The translations under genes were made by a program, and so were the position numbers. A DNA stretch of 64,000 bases from Snodgrassella sp. CFCC 13594 (GTDB taxonomy: Bacteria > Pseudomonadota > Gammaproteobacteria > Burkholderiales > Neisseriaceae), in the NCBI RefSeq assembly GCF_001590725.1, contig NZ_LQXR01000004.1:1-64000 (forward strand), read 5' to 3'. The notes beneath the pieces were generated by a model, which saw only the letters and a program-made list of their open reading frames with translations, was not told the DNA's origin and made no database searches. Positions 2,984 through 50,441 of this stretch are shown piece by piece. Position 1 is the stretch's first letter, and every line of letters starts with the position of its first letter.

Positions 2984-4864
2984 ATGAAAAGAATATGGCA
3001 ACAGATTGACCGGTCTTTCTTGCGCGGGCAGCGACTTTCTCGAGTACTGATGGTATTTATCGCCATTTGGTTGTTGCTGGCAACTGGGCTGATTGGTTTG
3101 TCCTTAAACACTTCTTGGCGGTTGGAAGAGCGCGGCATGGCCATTAATGAAGCAGGAAGCTTGCGCAAACGGGTTTTTCATATGATGTTGCTGGCAGAAC
3201 AACCGCATGACCAAAGCCAATTGCTCAATGAATACCATGAATTCGAAAAAATTCTTAGGCATTTAAAGATGTTGCGTGAAGGTGGATTTGGTGGCAGTGC
3301 ACGCCATCAGGCATTACAAAAACAAGTAACCACAATCGACCAGCATTTTCAGGCATTTTGGCACCAAACCCTAGCCTATAGTCAAAATAAAATAGGCAGT
3401 CAAGTGTTCTTGGCGGAAGCGGAATCGTTTACAGAAGCCATCAGTGATTTGGTGCTGATTATTGAGCAGGATAATACCCGCAATATTGAGCTGTTACGCT
3501 GGTTTCAACTGTCTTTGCTGATTATGGCATTTATATCGGCATTGGCGTCATTTCGTTTGCTCCACTACTTGGTCATTGCGCCACTGTATCGTTTAAATGA
3601 AGGAATCGTACGGATTCGACAAGGACATTTTCATGCTCGTGTGGACATGTCTCAAGCCAATGAATTTGGTCAAGTTGCGCATGGATTTAACTTAATGGCG
3701 GAAAAATTAAGTGTTGTGTATGACAATTTAGAAAACTTAGTGAGTGAAAAAACACAGGCTTTGCGCAAGAAAAACCATGAATTAGCAGTATTGTATGACA
3801 TGACTTCAGTGTTTCAAGAACATCAAGAATTGTCGATTCTAGTGCAGACATTTATCCATAAAATGATGGTGTTCAGTGGAGCTGAAGGTTGCGCAGTGCA
3901 ATTAAAAAAACGACATTCTTCAGTATTTGAGGTGGTAGGTACCAGTGGCTTGCCTGAATTGGTGGTTAATGATATCCGCCAATATAAGTGCGCGCAAGGG
4001 CATTGTCAGCAAGTGATTTGTGCTGAATATGCTGACATCGCGTCACCTGTGGCGATATTACCTCAAAATTATTGTGGGATTCAGCAAGCCTTTCCCCATT
4101 GCTTGGCTTTCAGCATTCGCTCGGCTGATGATGAAATTGGCATTTTGAATTTGTATGCCCATCACCCCTTGCACGTCAGTGCCGAAGATCAGCAGTTGGT
4201 TTCAACTGTATGTAGCCAATTTGGTATTGCCATTGAAAGTCTGCGTTTAAATGAGCTCGACAAGCAAATGGCCATTTTGGAAGAGCGCAATTTGATGGCG
4301 CAAGGGTTGCATGACAGCATTGCCCAATCTTTGTCTTTTTTGAATATGCAGGTACAGGTTTTAGAAAAAGCATTGGTTGAGCAGCAAACTGAGCGCATAA
4401 CACAAACGCTCCATTTTATTGATGAAGGTATTCAGGAATGTTATGACGATGTGCGTGAGTTGCTGTCGAATTTTAGAGTGAGGTTGGCGCGCGAGGGTTT
4501 TTTGAGCTCATTGCAATCGGTGATGAGTCGTTTTGAAAAGCAAACTGGCATTACTTTAGCATGGACTGTTACGGGCGAAGCATATGAATTGGATGCAGAT
4601 GAACAGTTGCAAATGGTCTTTATTGTTCAGGAAGCCTTATCGAATATTCGCAAACATGCTCATGCAAATCATGTGCAACTTCATCTGGTGTATGCGCCAG
4701 ATGGCGTTGAGTTGACTATTCAAGATAATGGTGTTGGTTTTGATACTCAGGAATTAAGACAAAAAGAGGTGCAGGGCCATGTTGGTACCAGTATCATGAA
4801 AGAACGCGCTGGAAAAATAGATGGGCAGCTAAAAATTGTATCGAAAACTGATCAAGCACGGTGA
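2984..4864 (+). CDS. narX: NarX-like nitrate/nitrite sensor histidine kinase, frameshifted at 3' end
   Basis: Membrane sensor kinase of the NarX type that would phosphorylate the adjacent NarL. There is a transmembrane helix near residues 20-42. A periplasmic PilJ/NIT-type sensor follows, with the P-box-like RGMAINEAGSLRKRVF near 50-66. A second helix lies near 170-190, then a HAMP linker, a GAF-like region about 270-400, and a HisKA_3 helix with the phospho-acceptor His443 in GLHDSIAQSL. The ATPase domain shows QDNGVGFD and GHVGTSIMKERA. The frame stops at 4864 after SKTDQAR, but the minus-one frame continues as TVIELTVPRKN and ends at 4908, six bases before narL. This is the expected last strand of the ATPase fold. 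Adding one G near 4856 would give DQGTVIELTVP. The loss is either a sequencing error or a real truncation. Confidence 0.9.
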   Translation: MKRIWQQIDRSFLRGQRLSRVLMVFIAIWLLLATGLIGLSLNTSWRLEERGMAINEAGSLRKRVFHMMLLAEQPHDQSQLLNEYHEFEKILRHLKMLREGGFGGSARHQALQKQVTTIDQHFQAFWHQTLAYSQNKIGSQVFLAEAESFTEAISDLVLIIEQDNTRNIELLRWFQLSLLIMAFISALASFRLLHYLVIAPLYRLNEGIVRIRQGHFHARVDMSQANEFGQVAHGFNLMAEKLSVVYDNLENLVSEKTQALRKKNHELAVLYDMTSVFQEHQELSILVQTFIHKMMVFSGAEGCAVQLKKRHSSVFEVVGTSGLPELVVNDIRQYKCAQGHCQQVICAEYADIASPVAILPQNYCGIQQAFPHCLAFSIRSADDEIGILNLYAHHPLHVSAEDQQLVSTVCSQFGIAIESLRLNELDKQMAILEERNLMAQGLHDSIAQSLSFLNMQVQVLEKALVEQQTERITQTLHFIDEGIQECYDDVRELLSNFRVRLAREGFLSSLQSVMSRFEKQTGITLAWTVTGEAYELDADEQLQMVFIVQEALSNIRKHAHANHVQLHLVYAPDGVELTIQDNGVGFDTQELRQKEVQGHVGTSIMKERAGKIDGQLKIVSKTDQAR

Positions 4865-4914
4865 TTGAATTGACTGTCCCACGCAAAAACAGGCGCACAA
4901 AGGAATAAACACAC

Positions 4915-5571
4915 ATGGAAAATACCGCAGCCAAATACCGCCTATTGATTGTTGACGACCACACTTTATTTCGCAAAGGACTGCGCTCTTTGGTCGACAG
5001 CAGCACACAGTTTGAGGTGGTTGGAGAAGCCACTGATGGCTTGGAAGGCGTGAAAATGCAGCAGCAATTAAGGCCAGATGCGGTATTGTTGGATCTAGAT
5101 ATGCCCGTGATGGGGGGGATTGAAGCGTTACCTATCATGATTAGCGACCACCCTGACTTGGCCGTTTTGATGTTGACGGTTTCAGAGGATAGCCATGATT
5201 TGATGGAATGTATGCGCTTGGGCGCCCGAGGCTATTTATTGAAAAACATCGATACTCAATTCTTGCTCGACAGCATTGGCAAAGCGATTGAAGGTGATAG
5301 CGTACTCTCCCCAGAAATGACGAGTAAATTAATTACTCATTTACGACACAAAGACACGCAGCCACAGAATCAAACTGAACCACTGACACCGCGCGAAAAA
5401 GAAATTTTGCAATGGTTGGCACGTGGCGTTAGCAATAAAGTCATCGCTCGGAATCTTAATGTGACGGAAAGCACCGTTAAAGTTCATGTACAAAATATTT
5501 TGCGCAAATTGAACGTGATTAGCCGTGTGCAGGCTGCGGTGTATGCTGTGGAGCACGGCCTGGACAAATAA
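4915..5571 (+). CDS. narL: NarL-family response regulator
   Basis: Two-domain regulator of 218 residues. The receiver domain (about 1-125) carries the acidic pair in LLIVDDHTLFR, the phospho-acceptor Asp60 in LLDLDMP, the switch threonine in MLTVSED and the lysine in YLLKNID. The C-terminal LuxR/NarL helix-turn-helix shows LTPREKEILQWLARG and TVKVHVQNILRKLN. It follows narX closely, and the AAGGAA ribosome site lies inside the possible narX tail, so the two are probably co-transcribed and translationally coupled. The expected targets are the narK and narG promoters downstream. In other Neisseriales this pair responds to nitrate or nitrite. Confidence 0.93.
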   Translation: MENTAAKYRLLIVDDHTLFRKGLRSLVDSSTQFEVVGEATDGLEGVKMQQQLRPDAVLLDLDMPVMGGIEALPIMISDHPDLAVLMLTVSEDSHDLMECMRLGARGYLLKNIDTQFLLDSIGKAIEGDSVLSPEMTSKLITHLRHKDTQPQNQTEPLTPREKEILQWLARGVSNKVIARNLNVTESTVKVHVQNILRKLNVISRVQAAVYAVEHGLDK

Positions 5572-5714
5572 GCGCGCGAGGGCCGTATCATAGAGGTGAT
5601 AGAAATAATTGCTGAAGATTCGTTTTCTACCACCAAGGCTTTTTAACAGCAATGTGTTAATGGTTTCTGTCGTTTGGTTGTGACATTGAGCTTCAAACAT
5701 TGATTTTTTCAAAT

Positions 5715-5746
5715 AAAGGCTGCCTGAAATCATTCAGGCAGCCTTT
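5715..5746 (+). terminator. inverted-DUS terminator after narXL
   Basis: A 14-bp perfect stem, AAAGGCTGCCTGAA and its complement, surrounds a 4-base loop ATCA and is followed by a T run. It contains two DNA uptake 12-mers in opposite orientation (5717-5728 and 5733-5744). The arrangement is the usual dual-purpose terminator/uptake site of the Neisseriaceae. Confidence 0.85.
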
Positions 5747-5783
5747 TTGCGATTTAAATTTAGTATGGTGGAAGAAGCAACTG

Positions 5784-5816
5784 GTCGAAAGAACTAGTGA
5801 AGGTTCGTCTTTTGCC
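5784..5816 (+). promoter_or_regulatory. shared nar upstream element, copy 1
   Basis: This 33-bp segment begins GTCGAAAGAACTA and ends TCTTTTGCC. It recurs at 8534-8567 upstream of narG with 13 identical bases at the left end, a conserved right end and one gap. It ends 83 bases before the narK1 start and lies after the narXL terminator, where a promoter or operator is expected. I cannot fit it to a textbook FNR or NarL consensus. Confidence 0.5.
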
Positions 5817-5899
5817 GTGCAAATTTGACCTGTTTTGCTAATGGGTTGAGGGGGTGATATTGCGTATGCTGACACCGTCTCACTACCAGGAGTAAACAA

Positions 5900-7120
5900 A
5901 TGGATACCGCAAAGAGAAAATCCATTACTGTATTAACGTCCAGCACAGTGTCTTTTGCCATCTGTTTCATGATATGGATGGTTTTTGCCGTTTTGGGTCT
6001 GCCGATTAAGCAGCAATTTAATTTAAATGAAACTGAATTCGGGCTATTAACAGCGATGCCTGTTTTGTCAGGTTCATTGATTCGTGTGCCTTTGGGCATT
6101 TGGGCTGATCGATTTGGTGGACGCATCGTTTTTTTCTTATTGATGCTGTTTTGCGTACCGCCTGTATTTCTGCTGCAATATGCGCACAGCTATAGCCAGT
6201 TTTTATTGATTGCACTCTGGCTGGGTTTGGTGGGTGGTTCATTCTCAGTAGGTACACCCTATGTAGCCAAATGGTTTAAAAAAGAAAACCAAGGTTTGGC
6301 TATGGGTATTTTTGGCGCAGGTAATGCCGGCGCGGCCTTAAATAAATTTTTGGCGCCCGCCATCATTGCGGCCTTCGGATGGCAAATGGTGCCACGCGTT
6401 TATGCGGTTATTTTATTGGTGGTTGCTATTTTATTTTGGTGTTTTAGCTATGCTGAACCAGCTTCTCATACCACCAAAAAAACTTGTTTAAGCGATCAAT
6501 TAAAACTCATTAAAAACCCACGCGTGTTGAAATACAGCCAATATTATTCTGTTGTATTTGGCGGTTATGTGGGTATCTCGCTATGGATGGTGAGCTATTA
6601 CGTTGAAGAATACCATTTTCCTTTAGTACAAGCGGCTTTACTCGCTGCTTGCTTCTCGCTGCCTGGTGGTGTGCTGCGTGCTTTTGGCGGCTGGTTGTCA
6701 GACAAATATGGCGCACATAAGGTGACTTGGGCTGTCATGTGGGTGTGTTGGGTTGCCTTCTTTATCTTGTCTTATCCGCAAACACAACTGTCTATCCAAA
6801 CGGTTTCAGGCAACCTGAATCTGCATATGGGCCTTAATGTCGTTTTATTTACCATTATCTTATTTGTTGTAGGCGTGGCTTTGGCCATTGGTAAAGCATC
6901 TGTATTCAAGTTTATTGCCAATGAATTCCCTGATGATATGGGTACTGTATCTGGCGTTGTGGGATTGGCGGGTGGTCTAGGCGGTTTTTTCTTGCCAATT
7001 TTGTTTGGCTTATTGGTGGATTTAACTGGTATTCGTTCCAGCTCATTCATGTTGATGTATGGCACTGTGTGCGTCAGCCTGATTTGGATGCATTTCTCGT
7101 TTAAAAAAGAACATATTTGA
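5900..7120 (+). CDS. narK1: nitrate/nitrite MFS transporter, NarK1 type
   Basis: Twelve-helix major facilitator protein of 406 residues in the nitrate/nitrite porter family. The family signature lies in the fifth helix as GIFGAGNAGAALNKFLAPA. The A-loop after helix 2 reads RVPLGIWADRFGGR, and a second copy LRAFGGWLSDKYGAHKV occurs in the C-terminal half. It is shorter than the following gene and resembles the NarK1 half of the fused NarK1-NarK2 proteins of denitrifiers, often assigned as nitrate/proton symporters. AGGAG stands 7 bases before the ATG. The next transporter starts only 17 bases downstream, so both are likely on one transcript initiated beyond the 5784 element. Confidence 0.92.
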   Translation: MDTAKRKSITVLTSSTVSFAICFMIWMVFAVLGLPIKQQFNLNETEFGLLTAMPVLSGSLIRVPLGIWADRFGGRIVFFLLMLFCVPPVFLLQYAHSYSQFLLIALWLGLVGGSFSVGTPYVAKWFKKENQGLAMGIFGAGNAGAALNKFLAPAIIAAFGWQMVPRVYAVILLVVAILFWCFSYAEPASHTTKKTCLSDQLKLIKNPRVLKYSQYYSVVFGGYVGISLWMVSYYVEEYHFPLVQAALLAACFSLPGGVLRAFGGWLSDKYGAHKVTWAVMWVCWVAFFILSYPQTQLSIQTVSGNLNLHMGLNVVLFTIILFVVGVALAIGKASVFKFIANEFPDDMGTVSGVVGLAGGLGGFFLPILFGLLVDLTGIRSSSFMLMYGTVCVSLIWMHFSFKKEHI

Positions 7121-7137
7121 TATTTTAAGGAATAGTC

Positions 7138-8508
7138 ATGAGCAAAATTTTAAGCAATTGGCAGCCGGAAGATTCCCAGTTTTGGCAAACCAAAGGCCAT
7201 CGCATTGCTAATAAAAATTTGTGGATATCCGTGCCTGCGTTGTTATTGGCCTTTGCTATTTGGCAGGTATGGAGTGTTACTGTGGTTAAGCTGCCGCATG
7301 TGGGTTTCCAATATTCCAATAATCAATTATTTTGGTTAGCTGCTTTGCCTGCTTTATCTGGTGCTACGTTACGTATTTTTTACTCATTTGTGATTCCGAT
7401 TTTTGGTGGCCGAAAATGGACGACATTGTCTACAGCCAGTCTGTTGATTCCAGCAATTGGCTTGGGTTTTGCCGTGCAAAACCCAAATACGGCTTATTCA
7501 ACCATGTTTGTTTTGGCATTATTGTGCGGGTTCGGCGGTGCTAATTTCAGCTCATCTATGTCCAATATTAGCTTCTTTTTTCCTAAGGCAGCCAAAGGCA
7601 ATGCCATGGGGATTAATGCGGGGCTAGGTAATCTGGGTGTATCTGTGGTGCAGCTGGCCGTGCCTTTGGTGATTACAGCGGGTATTTTTGGTGCCTTGGG
7701 TGGCGAATCTCAAACCATCACAACACCGCAGGGAACCAGTCAAGTGTGGTTACAAAATGCTGGCTTTATTTGGGTACCATTTATTATTTTGAGTTCTTTA
7801 GCCGCGTGGTTTGGTATGGATGATATTGGTAATATCAAATCATCCTTTAAAGAACAATCCATTATTTTTAAACGTTTGCATAACTGGATTATGTGCTGGT
7901 TGTATGTGGGTACATTTGGCTCTTTCATTGGTTTTTCTGCCGCATTCCCACTGTTGATTACTCAATCTTTTCCTCACGTCGATGCCATTAAATTTGCATT
8001 TTTAGGCCCATTGGTTGGCGCTATTATGCGCGTCGTTGGTGGTTGGTTATCAGACAAGATGTCAGCAGCGAAAGTAACAGAAGTCAGCTTTGTTATTATG
8101 ATTATCGGTGTTTTGGGGGTTATTTTGTCTCTGCCTGGCGTCGAAGGTTCTGGCAACTTCAGCGGATTTTTCTTAAGTTTTATTTTACTGTTCGCATTCA
8201 GTGGTATTGGCAATGGTTCAACTTTTGCACAAACACCTCGTATTTTCTCAATGTTTCATCGCCATATACAAAAAGGAGACTCCCAAGCTGCTGAAATGCA
8301 CGCGACTAAAGAGTCCGCCACTTCTTTAGGATTTATGGGCGCTATTGGTGCCTATGGTGGTTTTTTGATCCCCAAAAGCTTCGGTACATCTATTGCGTTA
8401 ACGGGTAGTGCGCAGTGGGCATTAATTTTGTTTATTGCGTTTTATGTGAGCTGTTTGATTGTGAATTATTGGTTTTATGTACGGAAACAATCGCTTACAT
8501 GTTGTTAG
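7138..8508 (+). CDS. narK2: nitrate/nitrite MFS transporter, NarK2 type
   Basis: A second nitrate/nitrite porter, 456 residues, longer than its neighbour and closer to E. coli NarK/NarU. It shows an arginine-containing helix (LSGATLRIFYSFVIPIFGGRK), the signature GINAGLGNLGVSVVQLAVP, a periplasmic insert with TTPQGTSQVW, and a second-half motif IMRVVGGWLSDKMS. NarK2-type proteins are usually nitrate/nitrite antiporters that feed cytoplasmic NarG while expelling nitrite. Separate adjacent genes here correspond to the fused protein of Paracoccus. The start codon is preceded by AAGGAA. Confidence 0.92.
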   Translation: MSKILSNWQPEDSQFWQTKGHRIANKNLWISVPALLLAFAIWQVWSVTVVKLPHVGFQYSNNQLFWLAALPALSGATLRIFYSFVIPIFGGRKWTTLSTASLLIPAIGLGFAVQNPNTAYSTMFVLALLCGFGGANFSSSMSNISFFFPKAAKGNAMGINAGLGNLGVSVVQLAVPLVITAGIFGALGGESQTITTPQGTSQVWLQNAGFIWVPFIILSSLAAWFGMDDIGNIKSSFKEQSIIFKRLHNWIMCWLYVGTFGSFIGFSAAFPLLITQSFPHVDAIKFAFLGPLVGAIMRVVGGWLSDKMSAAKVTEVSFVIMIIGVLGVILSLPGVEGSGNFSGFFLSFILLFAFSGIGNGSTFAQTPRIFSMFHRHIQKGDSQAAEMHATKESATSLGFMGAIGAYGGFLIPKSFGTSIALTGSAQWALILFIAFYVSCLIVNYWFYVRKQSLTCC

Positions 8509-17855: not shown

Positions 17856-18281
17856 CTAATTCCAACAAGCGATATACCACTTAGGTGTCATATGTTCAAA
17901 ATCTCTTCTAATACTGTTGGGAAGATTAACTGCTGAGTCTAGTACGAATTCCTCATTCCCAACTCTTTTAAAAACAACCCAATGCCAAAAATTTTTCCCA
18001 TCTTCTTTGTGATATCGTATAGACAATAATGCTAAATCAGGTAGGTCGGACCACGAAGTAAAAGATTTTTCCTTGTCTGCCGTAAAAACGCCAAATTTTT
18101 TGAGTAAACGGCGTACATATTGCGTGTCTGACCACAAAGCTTTGTCTACAGCGAATATGCCCATGCTATTAGCTACTGCTTTTATCTCGCTATAGCTTTT
18201 ACCAACAATATTGGCTACAGATGCGATGCCACATCCTGTGGTTTCTTCTTGTTTAATAGCCTTGATTTTTATTTTCGTCAT
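17856..18281 (-). CDS. papain-like (C39-type) cysteine protein of unknown role
   Basis: Hypothetical protein of 141 residues. A catalytic triad of the C39/papain-like type can be picked out: Cys17 in EETTGCGIASVANIVG, a histidine in NFWHWVVFKRV, and an aspartate in EFVLDSAVN. The order Cys-His-Asp and the spacing agree with bacteriocin-leader peptidases and related folds, but there is no ABC transporter or obvious peptide substrate nearby. There is no signal peptide, so it acts in the cytoplasm if active. It sits in an AT-rich patch with the GFA protein and the beta-lactamase, suggesting acquired DNA. Confidence 0.6.
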   Translation of the reverse strand: MTKIKIKAIKQEETTGCGIASVANIVGKSYSEIKAVANSMGIFAVDKALWSDTQYVRRLLKKFGVFTADKEKSFTSWSDLPDLALLSIRYHKEDGKNFWHWVVFKRVGNEEFVLDSAVNLPNSIRRDFEHMTPKWYIACWN

Positions 18282-18312: not shown

Positions 18313-18732
18313 TTAGTTTTTTGCACTGTATAAAGCAATCACATCTGCTTCAGTCAAATTGGTTGTTTCATTTCTAAATTCGTAAAATGATGGTTTATTA
18401 TCAATATAAATTTGAGTTTTCAGAATTAAGTCATCATTGTTATGAACAATACAAAAAACATTTATATTGCAAAATTTTTGATCTTGCGTGCGCCAAAATA
18501 AAGATGTCCCGCAGTGGTTACAAAAGCCTCGCTCTCCCCGTTCTGAGGACTGATAAATGGATACATAATTCTCAGTAATCCACCTCAAACTACCTTCTTT
18601 GATATGAATATTCATATTTATACCACCAGATTGACGTCTACAAAGCGAACAATGGCAGGCAGTTACATTCTGATTCATAGTCTCAATCTCAAATTGGGTA
18701 TAGCCACATAGGCAACGGCAGTATTGGTGCAT
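18313..18732 (-). CDS. GFA-family (CENP-V/GFA) zinc protein
   Basis: A 139-residue protein of the glutathione-dependent formaldehyde-activating fold. The zinc-binding cysteines are all visible: CRCLCG near residue 5, CHCSLCRRQSG near 27-31 and FCNHCGTSLFW near 71-74. Many members have no proven substrate, so the name describes the fold rather than an activity. It lies 31 bases upstream of the papain-like gene on the same strand and may form a pair with it. Codon use is AT-rich compared with core genes. Confidence 0.8.
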   Translation of the reverse strand: MHQYCRCLCGYTQFEIETMNQNVTACHCSLCRRQSGGINMNIHIKEGSLRWITENYVSIYQSSERGERGFCNHCGTSLFWRTQDQKFCNINVFCIVHNNDDLILKTQIYIDNKPSFYEFRNETTNLTEADVIALYSAKN

Positions 18733-18780: not shown

Positions 18781-18832
18781 TTGAGTATATCAAATTAAGA
18801 TTCCATTAGGAATCTTAATTTGATATACTCAA
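18781..18832. repeat. 24-bp-arm perfect palindrome upstream of the beta-lactamase gene
   Basis: Arms at 18781-18804 and 18809-18832 are perfect complements around the loop ATTA. The centre reads AAGATTCC, loop, GGAATCTT. There is no T run. It lies 88 bases before the beta-lactamase ATG and shares its core design with the palindrome at 20635-20670. It may be an operator for the nearby TetR protein or the scar of a mobile element. Confidence 0.75.
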
Positions 18833-18919
18833 TTGGCTAGCCTAATTGAATTTTTTCTTCTTTAGCTAGTTAATAAATAATCATTTAAAAATAAATTGAT
18901 ATTAAAGGTATTGCATTCT

Positions 18920-19738
18920 ATGAAAAAAACACTCTCTATCGGCGTCATTATGCTGTCTTTGTTGGCAGGGTGCCATGTTGTATCACAGCCTAAAGATGCT
19001 CCGATGCAGCAACAAGCCCAATCCATCCAGAGTGATTTCAGTCAAAAAAACATTAATGGTGTAATCACAATTTTTGATGGTAAAAATTACGCCAGTTATG
19101 GTAGCAATGTAGCACGAGCCAATCAGCAATTTATTCCAGCATCTACTTTTAAAATGCTTAATGCGCTTATCGCATTGGAAAATCGTATAACCACGACTAC
19201 TGAAGTTTTCAAATGGGATGGTCAAAAGCGTGGTTTTTCTACATGGGAAAAAGACATGACATTGGGTCAGGCGATGGAAGCTTCTGCTATTCCTGTGTAT
19301 CAGGACATTGCCCGCCGTACTGGGTTAACCCTGATGCAAAATGAGGTTCGTCGGGTGGGTTTTGGTAATAGTAACATAGGCACTCAAGTGGATAATTTCT
19401 GGTTAGTGGGTCCGTTAATGATTACTCCGAAGCAAGAAGCCCAATTCGCCTATCGTTTGGCAAAAGAAGAGTTACCCTTTTCCCAAAAGGTGCAGCAAGA
19501 CGTGAAAAAAATGCTGTTAATTGAACAGCAACAAGGCTACAAAGTATTTGCCAAAAGCGGCTGGGGTATGGATGTTGAGCCCGTTGTAGGCTGGTATACA
19601 GGTTGGGTTGAATCGCCCGATGGCCAGATTAAATCCTTTGCGCTTAATATTCAGATGGACAAGCAAACTCCACCCAGTATTCGCAAAGAACTAGCCATTC
19701 GGTCGCTTTCTGAGCTTGGCTTGTTCCCGAGCCATTAA
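18920..19738 (+). CDS. class D (OXA) beta-lactamase, carbapenem-hydrolysing-group features
   Basis: Serine beta-lactamase of 272 residues. It starts with a lipoprotein signal (MKKTLSIGVIMLSLLAGC), so it is probably anchored in a membrane facing the periplasm. Class D motifs in order: S75-T-F-K78, S122-A-I, F148-G-N (as in the OXA-24/40 group), Trp161 in VDNFWLVGPL and K212-S-G. Long stretches such as TTTEVFKWDGQKR and GTQVDNFWLVGPL match the Acinetobacter OXA-23, OXA-24/40 and OXA-51 groups. Phe106 and Met217 stand where those enzymes form the hydrophobic bridge over the active site. The ATG at 18920 has AAAGGT 10 bases upstream. It converges with tetR. The hydrolysis spectrum is inferred, not shown. 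Confidence 0.92.
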   Translation: MKKTLSIGVIMLSLLAGCHVVSQPKDAPMQQQAQSIQSDFSQKNINGVITIFDGKNYASYGSNVARANQQFIPASTFKMLNALIALENRITTTTEVFKWDGQKRGFSTWEKDMTLGQAMEASAIPVYQDIARRTGLTLMQNEVRRVGFGNSNIGTQVDNFWLVGPLMITPKQEAQFAYRLAKEELPFSQKVQQDVKKMLLIEQQQGYKVFAKSGWGMDVEPVVGWYTGWVESPDGQIKSFALNIQMDKQTPPSIRKELAIRSLSELGLFPSH

Positions 19739-19879
19739 ATGTTGGCGGTTCAACGATTGTTATTTTGATAAGTCAGGATGCCCCATGGGTCGCCTAGATT
19801 AGGTAAGTCATCTACGCGGCTAATCACACAACATGACCTACAAACCAGATCAGCTTGAGGTGCTTTCTCGAACGGCCAA

Positions 19880-20515
19880 TTAGGCATCTCGAGTTGGTTT
19901 ATATCCGCGTAGAAGATTTATGAATAACGCAATGGCATTATCGTCTGTGACTTTGCCGTATAGTGCTTTATCCACGGCGCTGCTGCGCACAAGTGTTATT
20001 AAGCTATTAGCCAGTTTTAAAGGTGATTCAGGTAGCCTTATGTGGGCCAAGTTAAATAAATAAGACAACAAATCGGCGTAGGTATGACGATGCCTATCCA
20101 TCATTACTGTATATTCTTTTTCAAAAGCAGCATTACGTGCAGCAAAGAGATATAGCTCGGTAGACAGTAGTGCTAGGTGTCTATCCATAGCATAGTCTTG
20201 TATCCAACTGGATACAGCAGCTAATGCTGAGTCAAAATCTGTACTGGCTTTTTTGACAACAGACAAAAGACTTTGTGCAATCTGATCGTTATGCTGATCT
20301 AATAAATTCAATATCAGATCTTCTTTGCTTTCAAAATTAGAGTGAAACGCACCTTTGGTGTATCCAGCCCCTTTTGCAATATCATTAATTGACGTGCCTT
20401 CAACACCTTTTTCGGCTACCAGAAGATAGGCTGATTCAATGAGTCGTTGCCGAGTTCGCTGCTGAGTTTCTTCACGAGAAAAACGCGTTATTTCTGCTTT
20501 GTTTATTTTTTTCAT
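19880..20515 (-). CDS. TetR/AcrR-family repressor
   Basis: DNA-binding regulator of 211 residues. The N-terminal helix-turn-helix reads RQRLIESAYLLVAEKGVEGT, then SINDIAKGAGYTKGAFHSNF, with the typical TetR ending SNFESKEDLIL. The C-terminal ligand domain is not assignable. The ATG at 20515 is chosen because GGGAG lies 6 bases upstream; the longer frame from 20554 has no such site. It faces the beta-lactamase gene tail to tail. A palindrome with an ATTCC-N4-GGAAT core lies upstream of each gene, which suggests autorepression and control of the lactamase. Confidence 0.88.
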   Translation of the reverse strand: MKKINKAEITRFSREETQQRTRQRLIESAYLLVAEKGVEGTSINDIAKGAGYTKGAFHSNFESKEDLILNLLDQHNDQIAQSLLSVVKKASTDFDSALAAVSSWIQDYAMDRHLALLSTELYLFAARNAAFEKEYTVMMDRHRHTYADLLSYLFNLAHIRLPESPLKLANSLITLVRSSAVDKALYGKVTDDNAIALFINLLRGYKPTRDA

Positions 20516-20634
20516 TTTATCTCCCGTATCCCTGTAATAGAGGGAATATTTCAACCGTCATAATTAGATGCAATTAAACATTGCAGTTTGTATGGATTGT
20601 TTAGCGATTGACATCTATTAGTTGTCATCATATT

Positions 20635-20670
20635 ACTCATTAAAAATTCCATACGGAATTTTTAATGAGT
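20635..20670. repeat. 16-bp-arm perfect palindrome upstream of tetR
   Basis: Arms 20635-20650 and 20655-20670 (ACTCATTAAAAATTCC and its complement) surround the loop ATAC. It lies 120 bases upstream of the tetR ATG. The inner bases ATTCC-N4-GGAAT are the same as in the palindrome at 18781-18832. A TetR operator is the simplest reading; a terminator is less likely because no gene ends here. Confidence 0.7.
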
Positions 20671-21187
20671 TTCGAAAAAACTAAATTTTGAGTGGTTAGC
20701 TGAAACTTTAATAATCTAGTTGCATTTTAGCAAATGTGATTCGAAGCATTGAGGATTAACTTAATGGATCTATTCAAATAATAATAGCTGGGTTGGCAAT
20801 GAGATGGACGGTTAGCCAAGCCCGTATGCCTGCCATGATGCCGATATTCATCACCGCTGGTCATCAACCCACAGACAAAGGCAAACTAGTAGCTCCAGCT
20901 ACAATGATCCACTACAACGCAAAGATAGTATCTACTTATTGCGCGCTACCACGGGCTTCTGCCAAATATAATGGTTTTTTCCCCAAGCACTCACCTTAAG
21001 CTTTCGTGATTATTAAAATTACTCAGTCATTAGTATGGAAAGTTTCGGCTAATTCTCATACCAACTTAGAAACCCAGCTTGCTGTATCTAGGTATTCATT
21101 TCAATGAATAGTTTTAATTAGATATTTAAATGGGTATTGTCGGAATGATGAAAAACTACGAATAACCAGAGTTTTATTGAAAAATAA
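20671..21187. other. intergenic region, possible gene remnant
   Basis: About 500 bases without a credible gene. Read on the minus strand between about 21000 and 20780, one frame carries a hydrophobic protein-like stretch (PAVMNIGIMAGIRAWLTVHL), but it holds four or more stops. It could be the ruin of a membrane protein once linked to the TetR regulator. I cannot identify a family. Confidence 0.3.
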
Positions 21188-26682: not shown

Positions 26683-26719
26683 TTAAGGCTGCCTGAATTG
26701 TTATTTCAGGCAGCCTTAA
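26683..26719 (+). terminator. inverted-DUS terminator after glnB
   Basis: A 15-bp perfect stem (TTAAGGCTGCCTGAA and its complement) with a 7-base loop TTGTTAT, made of two opposed uptake 12-mers. It lies about 105 bases past glnB. The rest of the 380-bp gap before rpsF shows no gene; the rpsF promoter must lie in its last 200 bases. Confidence 0.8.
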
Positions 26720-38374: not shown

Positions 38375-38410
38375 AATATGTAGGCTGTTTATTACAACAG
38401 CCTACATATT
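38375..38410 (+). terminator. terminator after the antiporter gene
   Basis: A 15-bp perfect stem (AATATGTAGGCTGTT and its complement) with the loop TATTAC. It lies 34 bases after the stop. Confidence 0.75.
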
Positions 38411-38467
38411 AAATTTATTAAAAATCAAATACTAATTATTTCTCCCCAAGCATTTTCCTTTTTGGCT

Positions 38468-38495
38468 ATTTACATGTTGCATGCAACATGTAAAT
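38468..38495. promoter_or_regulatory. 28-bp perfect palindrome near the 3' end of gntR
   Basis: An uninterrupted palindrome with centre CATGTTGCATGCAACATG. Perfect dyads with a GTTGC/GCAAC core resemble operators of GntR/FadR-type dimers. It lies 17 bases beyond the gntR stop rather than at a promoter, so it may instead help to end the minus-strand transcript. Confidence 0.45.
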
Positions 38496-38512
38496 ATGCG
38501 GCCAAACCAAAA

Positions 38513-50413: not shown

Positions 50414-50441
50414 ATTCAGGCAGCCTTAAGGCTGCCTGAAT
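50414..50441. terminator. perfect inverted-DUS palindrome after trpC
   Basis: A 28-bp perfect palindrome built of two uptake 12-mers that meet at TTAA (50415-50426 and 50429-50440). It starts 4 bases past the trpC stop and would form a hairpin terminator, though it lacks a T run. Confidence 0.75.

Follow-up and report, generated by a model that had tools for sequence, protein, structure and literature searches.

In Aeromonas the class D beta-lactamase OXA-12 is under the control of the two-component system BlrAB, and in Ralstonia pickettii the enzymes OXA-22 and OXA-60 have a positive regulator, RP3, which binds to repeats upstream of the genes (PMC3660660). We have found no class D beta-lactamase controlled by a TetR protein in the openly accessible literature, at the level of titles and abstracts; such control would be an undescribed mode of regulation. 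Inverted repeats with a similar word are found in Neisseria, where the dRS3 repeat, ATTCCC-N8-GGGAAT, has about 700 copies (PMC3898611). The maintenance of palindromes by template switching is established (e.g. PMC7202029, PMC8794818).

Genes at the locus

The locus described here is found in a 64-kb stretch of DNA, which as a whole we call the window. Its genes are the following:

18313–18732, minus strand: GFA-family gene (PF04828), which diverges from OXA with palindrome 1 between them; probable co-target
18920 (ATG) to 19738 (stop), plus strand: OXA class D beta-lactamase, intact, with motifs STFK, SAI, FGN and KSG, a signal peptide and a lipobox-like LLAGC
20515 (ATG) to 19880 (stop), minus strand: TetR/AcrR-family regulator (tetR) of 211 aa, HTH with TKGAFHSNF in the recognition-helix region

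From these coordinates it follows that OXA and tetR face each other with the palindromes on their 5' sides, which confirms the arrangement given in the original prediction. Palindrome 1 is placed in the intergenic region common to OXA and the divergent GFA-family gene, 87 bp from the start codon of the former and 48 bp from that of the latter. Between palindrome 2 and the start codon of tetR there are 119 bp; the nearest gene upstream of the palindrome, a tRNA-Ser, is about 520 bp away. Gene remnants were looked for in positions 20680–21187, where no Pfam match was found. A small gene downstream of the GFA-family gene, in positions 17856–18281, has a weak Peptidase_C39-like match, below the cut-off.

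The beta-lactamase belongs to class D (NF012161, 311.5 bits with a cut-off of 250) and has all the motifs in its translation. It falls outside the named allele families, such as OXA-51-like or OXA-286-like: its best score is 358 bits against a required 570, the NCBIfam cut-offs shown for these families being 390 to 625 bits. Judged by its sequence it is a separate, divergent OXA. The regulator is a member of the TetR/AcrR family (PF00440 TetR_N, E 9e-12, 45 bits against 24) and has relatives in the PDB; a single-sequence structure model of this protein had a pLDDT of 43 and was set aside.

The palindromes in the window and in the genome

Three palindromes of the same type are found in the genome:

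18781–18832, no strand: palindrome 1, perfect arms of 24 bp, loop ATTA, apex ATTCCATTAGGAAT in 18800–18813; proposed operator of OXA and of the divergent GFA-family gene
20635–20670, no strand: palindrome 2, perfect arms of 16 bp, loop ATAC, apex ATTCCATACGGAAT in 20646–20659; proposed operator of tetR
G000:C1:241784-241827: third palindrome, arms of 20 bp with one mismatch, ATTCC-ATAT-GGAAT, in the uvrA/pntA intergenic region

Palindromes 1 and 2 are exactly as they had been predicted, perfect in arms of 24 and 16 bp, with 4-base loops and one ATTCC-N4-GGAAT core. Both the reading of the sequence and a repeat search give this apex as common to the two, centred in each on ATTCC-AT-NN-GGAAT. 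The window has two copies of the apex word, while 0.09 are expected, and that number was reached in none of 100 shuffles. Arms longer than 11 bp were absent from six first-order Markov simulations of the window. A chance origin of palindromes 1 and 2 is ruled out by these shuffles and simulations.

Length alone does not set these palindromes apart, since 41 with an arm score of at least 13 were counted in a census of 484 kb of the genome. The three apex palindromes are the AT-richest of this census (0.75–0.80). Most of the others contain either a pair of DNA-uptake sequences or a T run, which gives them the look of terminators. The uptake word AGGCTGCCTGAA, presumably a dialect which points to Neisseriaceae, is found 13 times in the window; neither palindrome 1 nor palindrome 2 contains it, so that they are not uptake-sequence hairpins. 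Inverted pairs of this word form hairpins, probably terminators, throughout the genome, for example in window positions 5715–5746, 26683–26719 and 50414–50441. Two more long palindromes are found between convergent genes, in 38467–38496 and 38375–38410; the former (TATTTACATGTTGCATGCAACATGTAAATA) has neither loop nor T tail. No dRS3 repeat is present in the 484 kb.

In the whole genome (2.37 Mb) the apex word appears in four places: the three palindromes and C8:13411. No long-arm palindrome is found within the 12 kb which surround this last copy. We built a covariance model from the three apex palindromes and searched with it this genome and 13 congeneric genomes, the latter having neither this tetR nor OXA. 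In its own genome it found only the three sites used to build it, with 63–70 bits; a weak fourth match on C9 is a terminator with a T tail. In the congeneric genomes nothing exceeded 27 bits, and no such palindrome is found upstream of their pntA genes. The exact core of palindrome 1 has a single match in viral contigs, an unrelated terminator.

Two of the three sites lie within 1.85 kb, which has p = 0.0047 if they are randomly placed. The third one shows that the motif is not confined to the OXA/tetR module, since it is far from tetR, about 200 bp upstream of uvrA and 350 bp upstream of pntA, and it is not clearly in a promoter. The uvrA gene next to it is read in two overlapping frames (7021–7668 and 4757–7219 of the C1 stretch), likely by a frameshift, either real or due to an assembly error. 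The arms of palindrome 1 and of the third site have common outer ends, GAGTATAT, and their inner differences are mostly compensated on both arms. Such a pattern would result if one arm is corrected from the other by template switching, or if symmetry itself is selected. Given the composition of the arms, two palindromes would have an identical 5-bp apex by chance with a probability of about 0.003. The apex is constant in all three palindromes, which points to its recognition.

Promoter-like elements

Sequences similar to −10 boxes are found in or next to the palindromes of the window:

18784–18792: mirror −10-like copy, directed towards the GFA-family gene, within the left arm of palindrome 1; consensus match only
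18821–18829, plus strand: extended −10-like TGATATACT, directed towards OXA, within the right arm of palindrome 1; consensus match only
20630–20635, minus strand: −10-like hexamer TAATAT (4/6), facing tetR, at the spacing from the apex seen in palindrome 1; weak

In both outward directions of palindrome 1 the hexamer TATACT is placed 17 bases beyond TTCCNN, inside TGATATACT. The same register gives TAATAT on the tetR side of palindrome 2, with no such box on the other side; in the third site it gives TATACT towards uvrA and TATACG towards pntA. The background for such boxes is 1.5% with 5/6 matches or better and 8.7% with 4/6 or better. The registers of palindrome 1 and of the third site are not independent, because their arms are related. 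These promoters were called by matches to the consensus, in DNA that is rich in A+T; an automatic scan gave promoters no more numerous than in shuffles, so that the −10 register is a lead only. With the predicted boxes, the −35 region would coincide with the apex; it is a usual position for repressors.

Distribution and origin of the module

None of the 13 other genomes of the genus has OXA, and elsewhere in the family it occurs only once, with 39% identity. Its best relatives in genomes are the OXA enzymes of Acinetobacter populi and A. puyangensis, 60% identical over the full length. Among 83 genomes of the family and 369 of the class, none was found to have an orthologue of the TetR protein. 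In collections of genome contigs, plasmids, phages and viruses no homologue exceeds 43% identity; the best ones are plasmid proteins of Agrobacterium and Paracoccus (36–43%). Because of this patchy distribution the module of OXA and tetR has probably been acquired. The stretch between 16 and 22 kb has a G+C content of 0.385–0.39, lower than most of the window. This region runs past palindrome 1, to the GFA-family gene and the next gene, with low GC3. The neighbourhoods of luxS and pntA are not syntenic in the 12 congeneric genomes which have these genes.

We also viewed 11 plasmid neighbourhoods of TetR homologues. In one of them, Klebsiella pKPN-a41, the tetR gene (32% identity) is divergent from pntAB. 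The others adjoin genes for catalase, peroxidase, oleate hydratase, DoxX, reductases and transporters. The third palindrome is also upstream of pntA, but ten of the 11 contexts differ, so that the coincidence with pntAB is modest evidence. Upstream of TetR homologues with 30–43% identity there is no ATTCC-N4-GGAAT; these regions have other dyads or no clear ones.

Possible function of the palindromes

We consider that there is an even chance that the palindromes are operators of the adjacent TetR-family repressor, with the third one as a distant target. This is suggested by a constant apex in arms which otherwise differ, by its rarity (three sites in 2.37 Mb) and by the position of two sites upstream of tetR and of its neighbour. 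On the other side, a TetR operator does not need arms as long as 20–24 bp, and the homologues lack this dyad. The original prediction that the TetR protein represses itself and the lactamase through the common core stands in part: such sites are not widespread where tetR is missing (three in this genome, none in the 13 congeneric genomes), but one of them is far from it.

The same facts may be read in other ways. The three palindromes could be sites of a different chromosomal DNA-binding protein which controls OXA, tetR and either uvrA or pntA; the adjacent tetR would then be incidental, with an unseen operator or target of its own. The distance of the third site from tetR agrees with this, as do the upstream regions of the TetR homologues. 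However the congeneric genomes, which are expected to have the same chromosomal regulator, have no such palindromes, even upstream of pntA, and two of the three sites flank this single gene pair, so that we find another regulator improbable. As for RNA hairpins, the palindromes do fold stably as single strands and many long palindromes in this genome look like terminators. Nevertheless an intrinsic terminator has a G+C-rich stem and a T run and is found 3' of a gene. Here the stems are AT-rich, no T tail follows them and they are placed between divergent genes or upstream of tetR, some 520 bp from the tRNA-Ser, all of which argues against terminators. An Rfam search gave the tRNA as its sole real match. 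We therefore regard terminators, or RNA hairpins of another kind, as very unlikely.

Another possibility would be a small family of hairpins which move or spread, or else end marks of an acquired unit with OXA and tetR, with a lone copy at uvrA/pntA. Both genes are missing from the rest of the genus and nearly so from the family, which would fit with it, and so would the lowered G+C between 16 and 22 kb and the relatedness of palindrome 1 and the third site in their arms. But there are only three copies, all different; no transposase gene is found between the palindromes, the low-G+C region extends beyond them and the Acinetobacter relatives of OXA lack them. No credible target duplication is present either: the best word common to the flanks has 8 bp and is not exactly at the ends. 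REP/RAYT hairpins or a unit of the IS200/IS605 type were rejected, given the number of copies and the absence from the genome of any PF01797 match, that is of a Y1 transposase. An integration island at the tRNA-Ser (GGA) was also discarded, as the window contains no copy of the attachment site. The mobile unit offered as an alternative in the original prediction has thus gained no positive support, and the third palindrome is found without the module. We consider mobile hairpins or unit ends unlikely, and the interpretation as mobile ends is disfavoured.

If the palindromes are operators of the TetR protein, a dimer of it would bind the constant 14-bp dyad ATTCC-N4-GGAAT at the putative −35 region and block the transcription of OXA, of the GFA-family gene and of tetR itself. 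A ligand would release the protein and turn the genes on. The GFA-family gene would be repressed too, because palindrome 1 is symmetrical and placed between divergent genes. The uvrA/pntA intergenic site may also be a target, at a distance. A single TetR dimer would not contact the outer arms in full: probably they are kept perfect by template-switch correction of quasipalindromes, or they bind additional dimers. In this scheme we infer the promoter positions, the binding, the repression and the ligand. Taken as a whole, with a dedicated TetR protein which controls OXA through long palindromes together with the GFA-family gene and a distant locus of redox or repair function, pntAB or uvrA, it is a tentative proposal and on balance a doubtful one; it would be the first TetR-regulated OXA, inducible by a small molecule which is perhaps not a beta-lactam.

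If it is true, the expression of OXA would follow the ligand of the TetR protein and not cell-wall damage, the signal of the AmpR or BlrAB routes. Resistance could then escape routine tests, and unrelated compounds could switch it on. The locus would also illustrate how a lactamase gene comes under local control once transferred to a new family. Palindromes of this kind, whose long perfect arms enclose a short constant apex, lend themselves well to a test of template-switch maintenance around a protein site.

Comparison with known systems

TetR autorepressors with paired operators, of the AcrR/MtrR/PsrA type, have in common with our locus the TetR_N domain and a dyad upstream of their own gene and of a neighbour. 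The sites of PsrA have a 5-N4-5 dyad geometry, as in the apex found here. The differences are that our tetR is convergent, not divergent, to its supposed target, that the perfect arms are unusually long, and that the putative target is a beta-lactamase. The dRS3 repeats also have inverted ATTCC/GGAAT words and belong to what is presumably the same bacterial family, but here the spacer has 4 bases instead of 8, the arms are much longer and there are three copies instead of about 700. The OXA enzymes of Acinetobacter (OXA-51-, OXA-286- and OXA-23-like) are similar in sequence, up to the identity given above for A. populi and A. puyangensis, and have all the catalytic motifs. However in the 400 bp upstream of these genes there is no palindrome of at least 9 pairs, and no such tetR is found in the neighbourhood. 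Finally, in the BlrAB and RP3 systems, as at our locus, a class D enzyme encoded in the chromosome has a regulator of its own; the difference is that here the regulator is a TetR-family protein, presumably a repressor.
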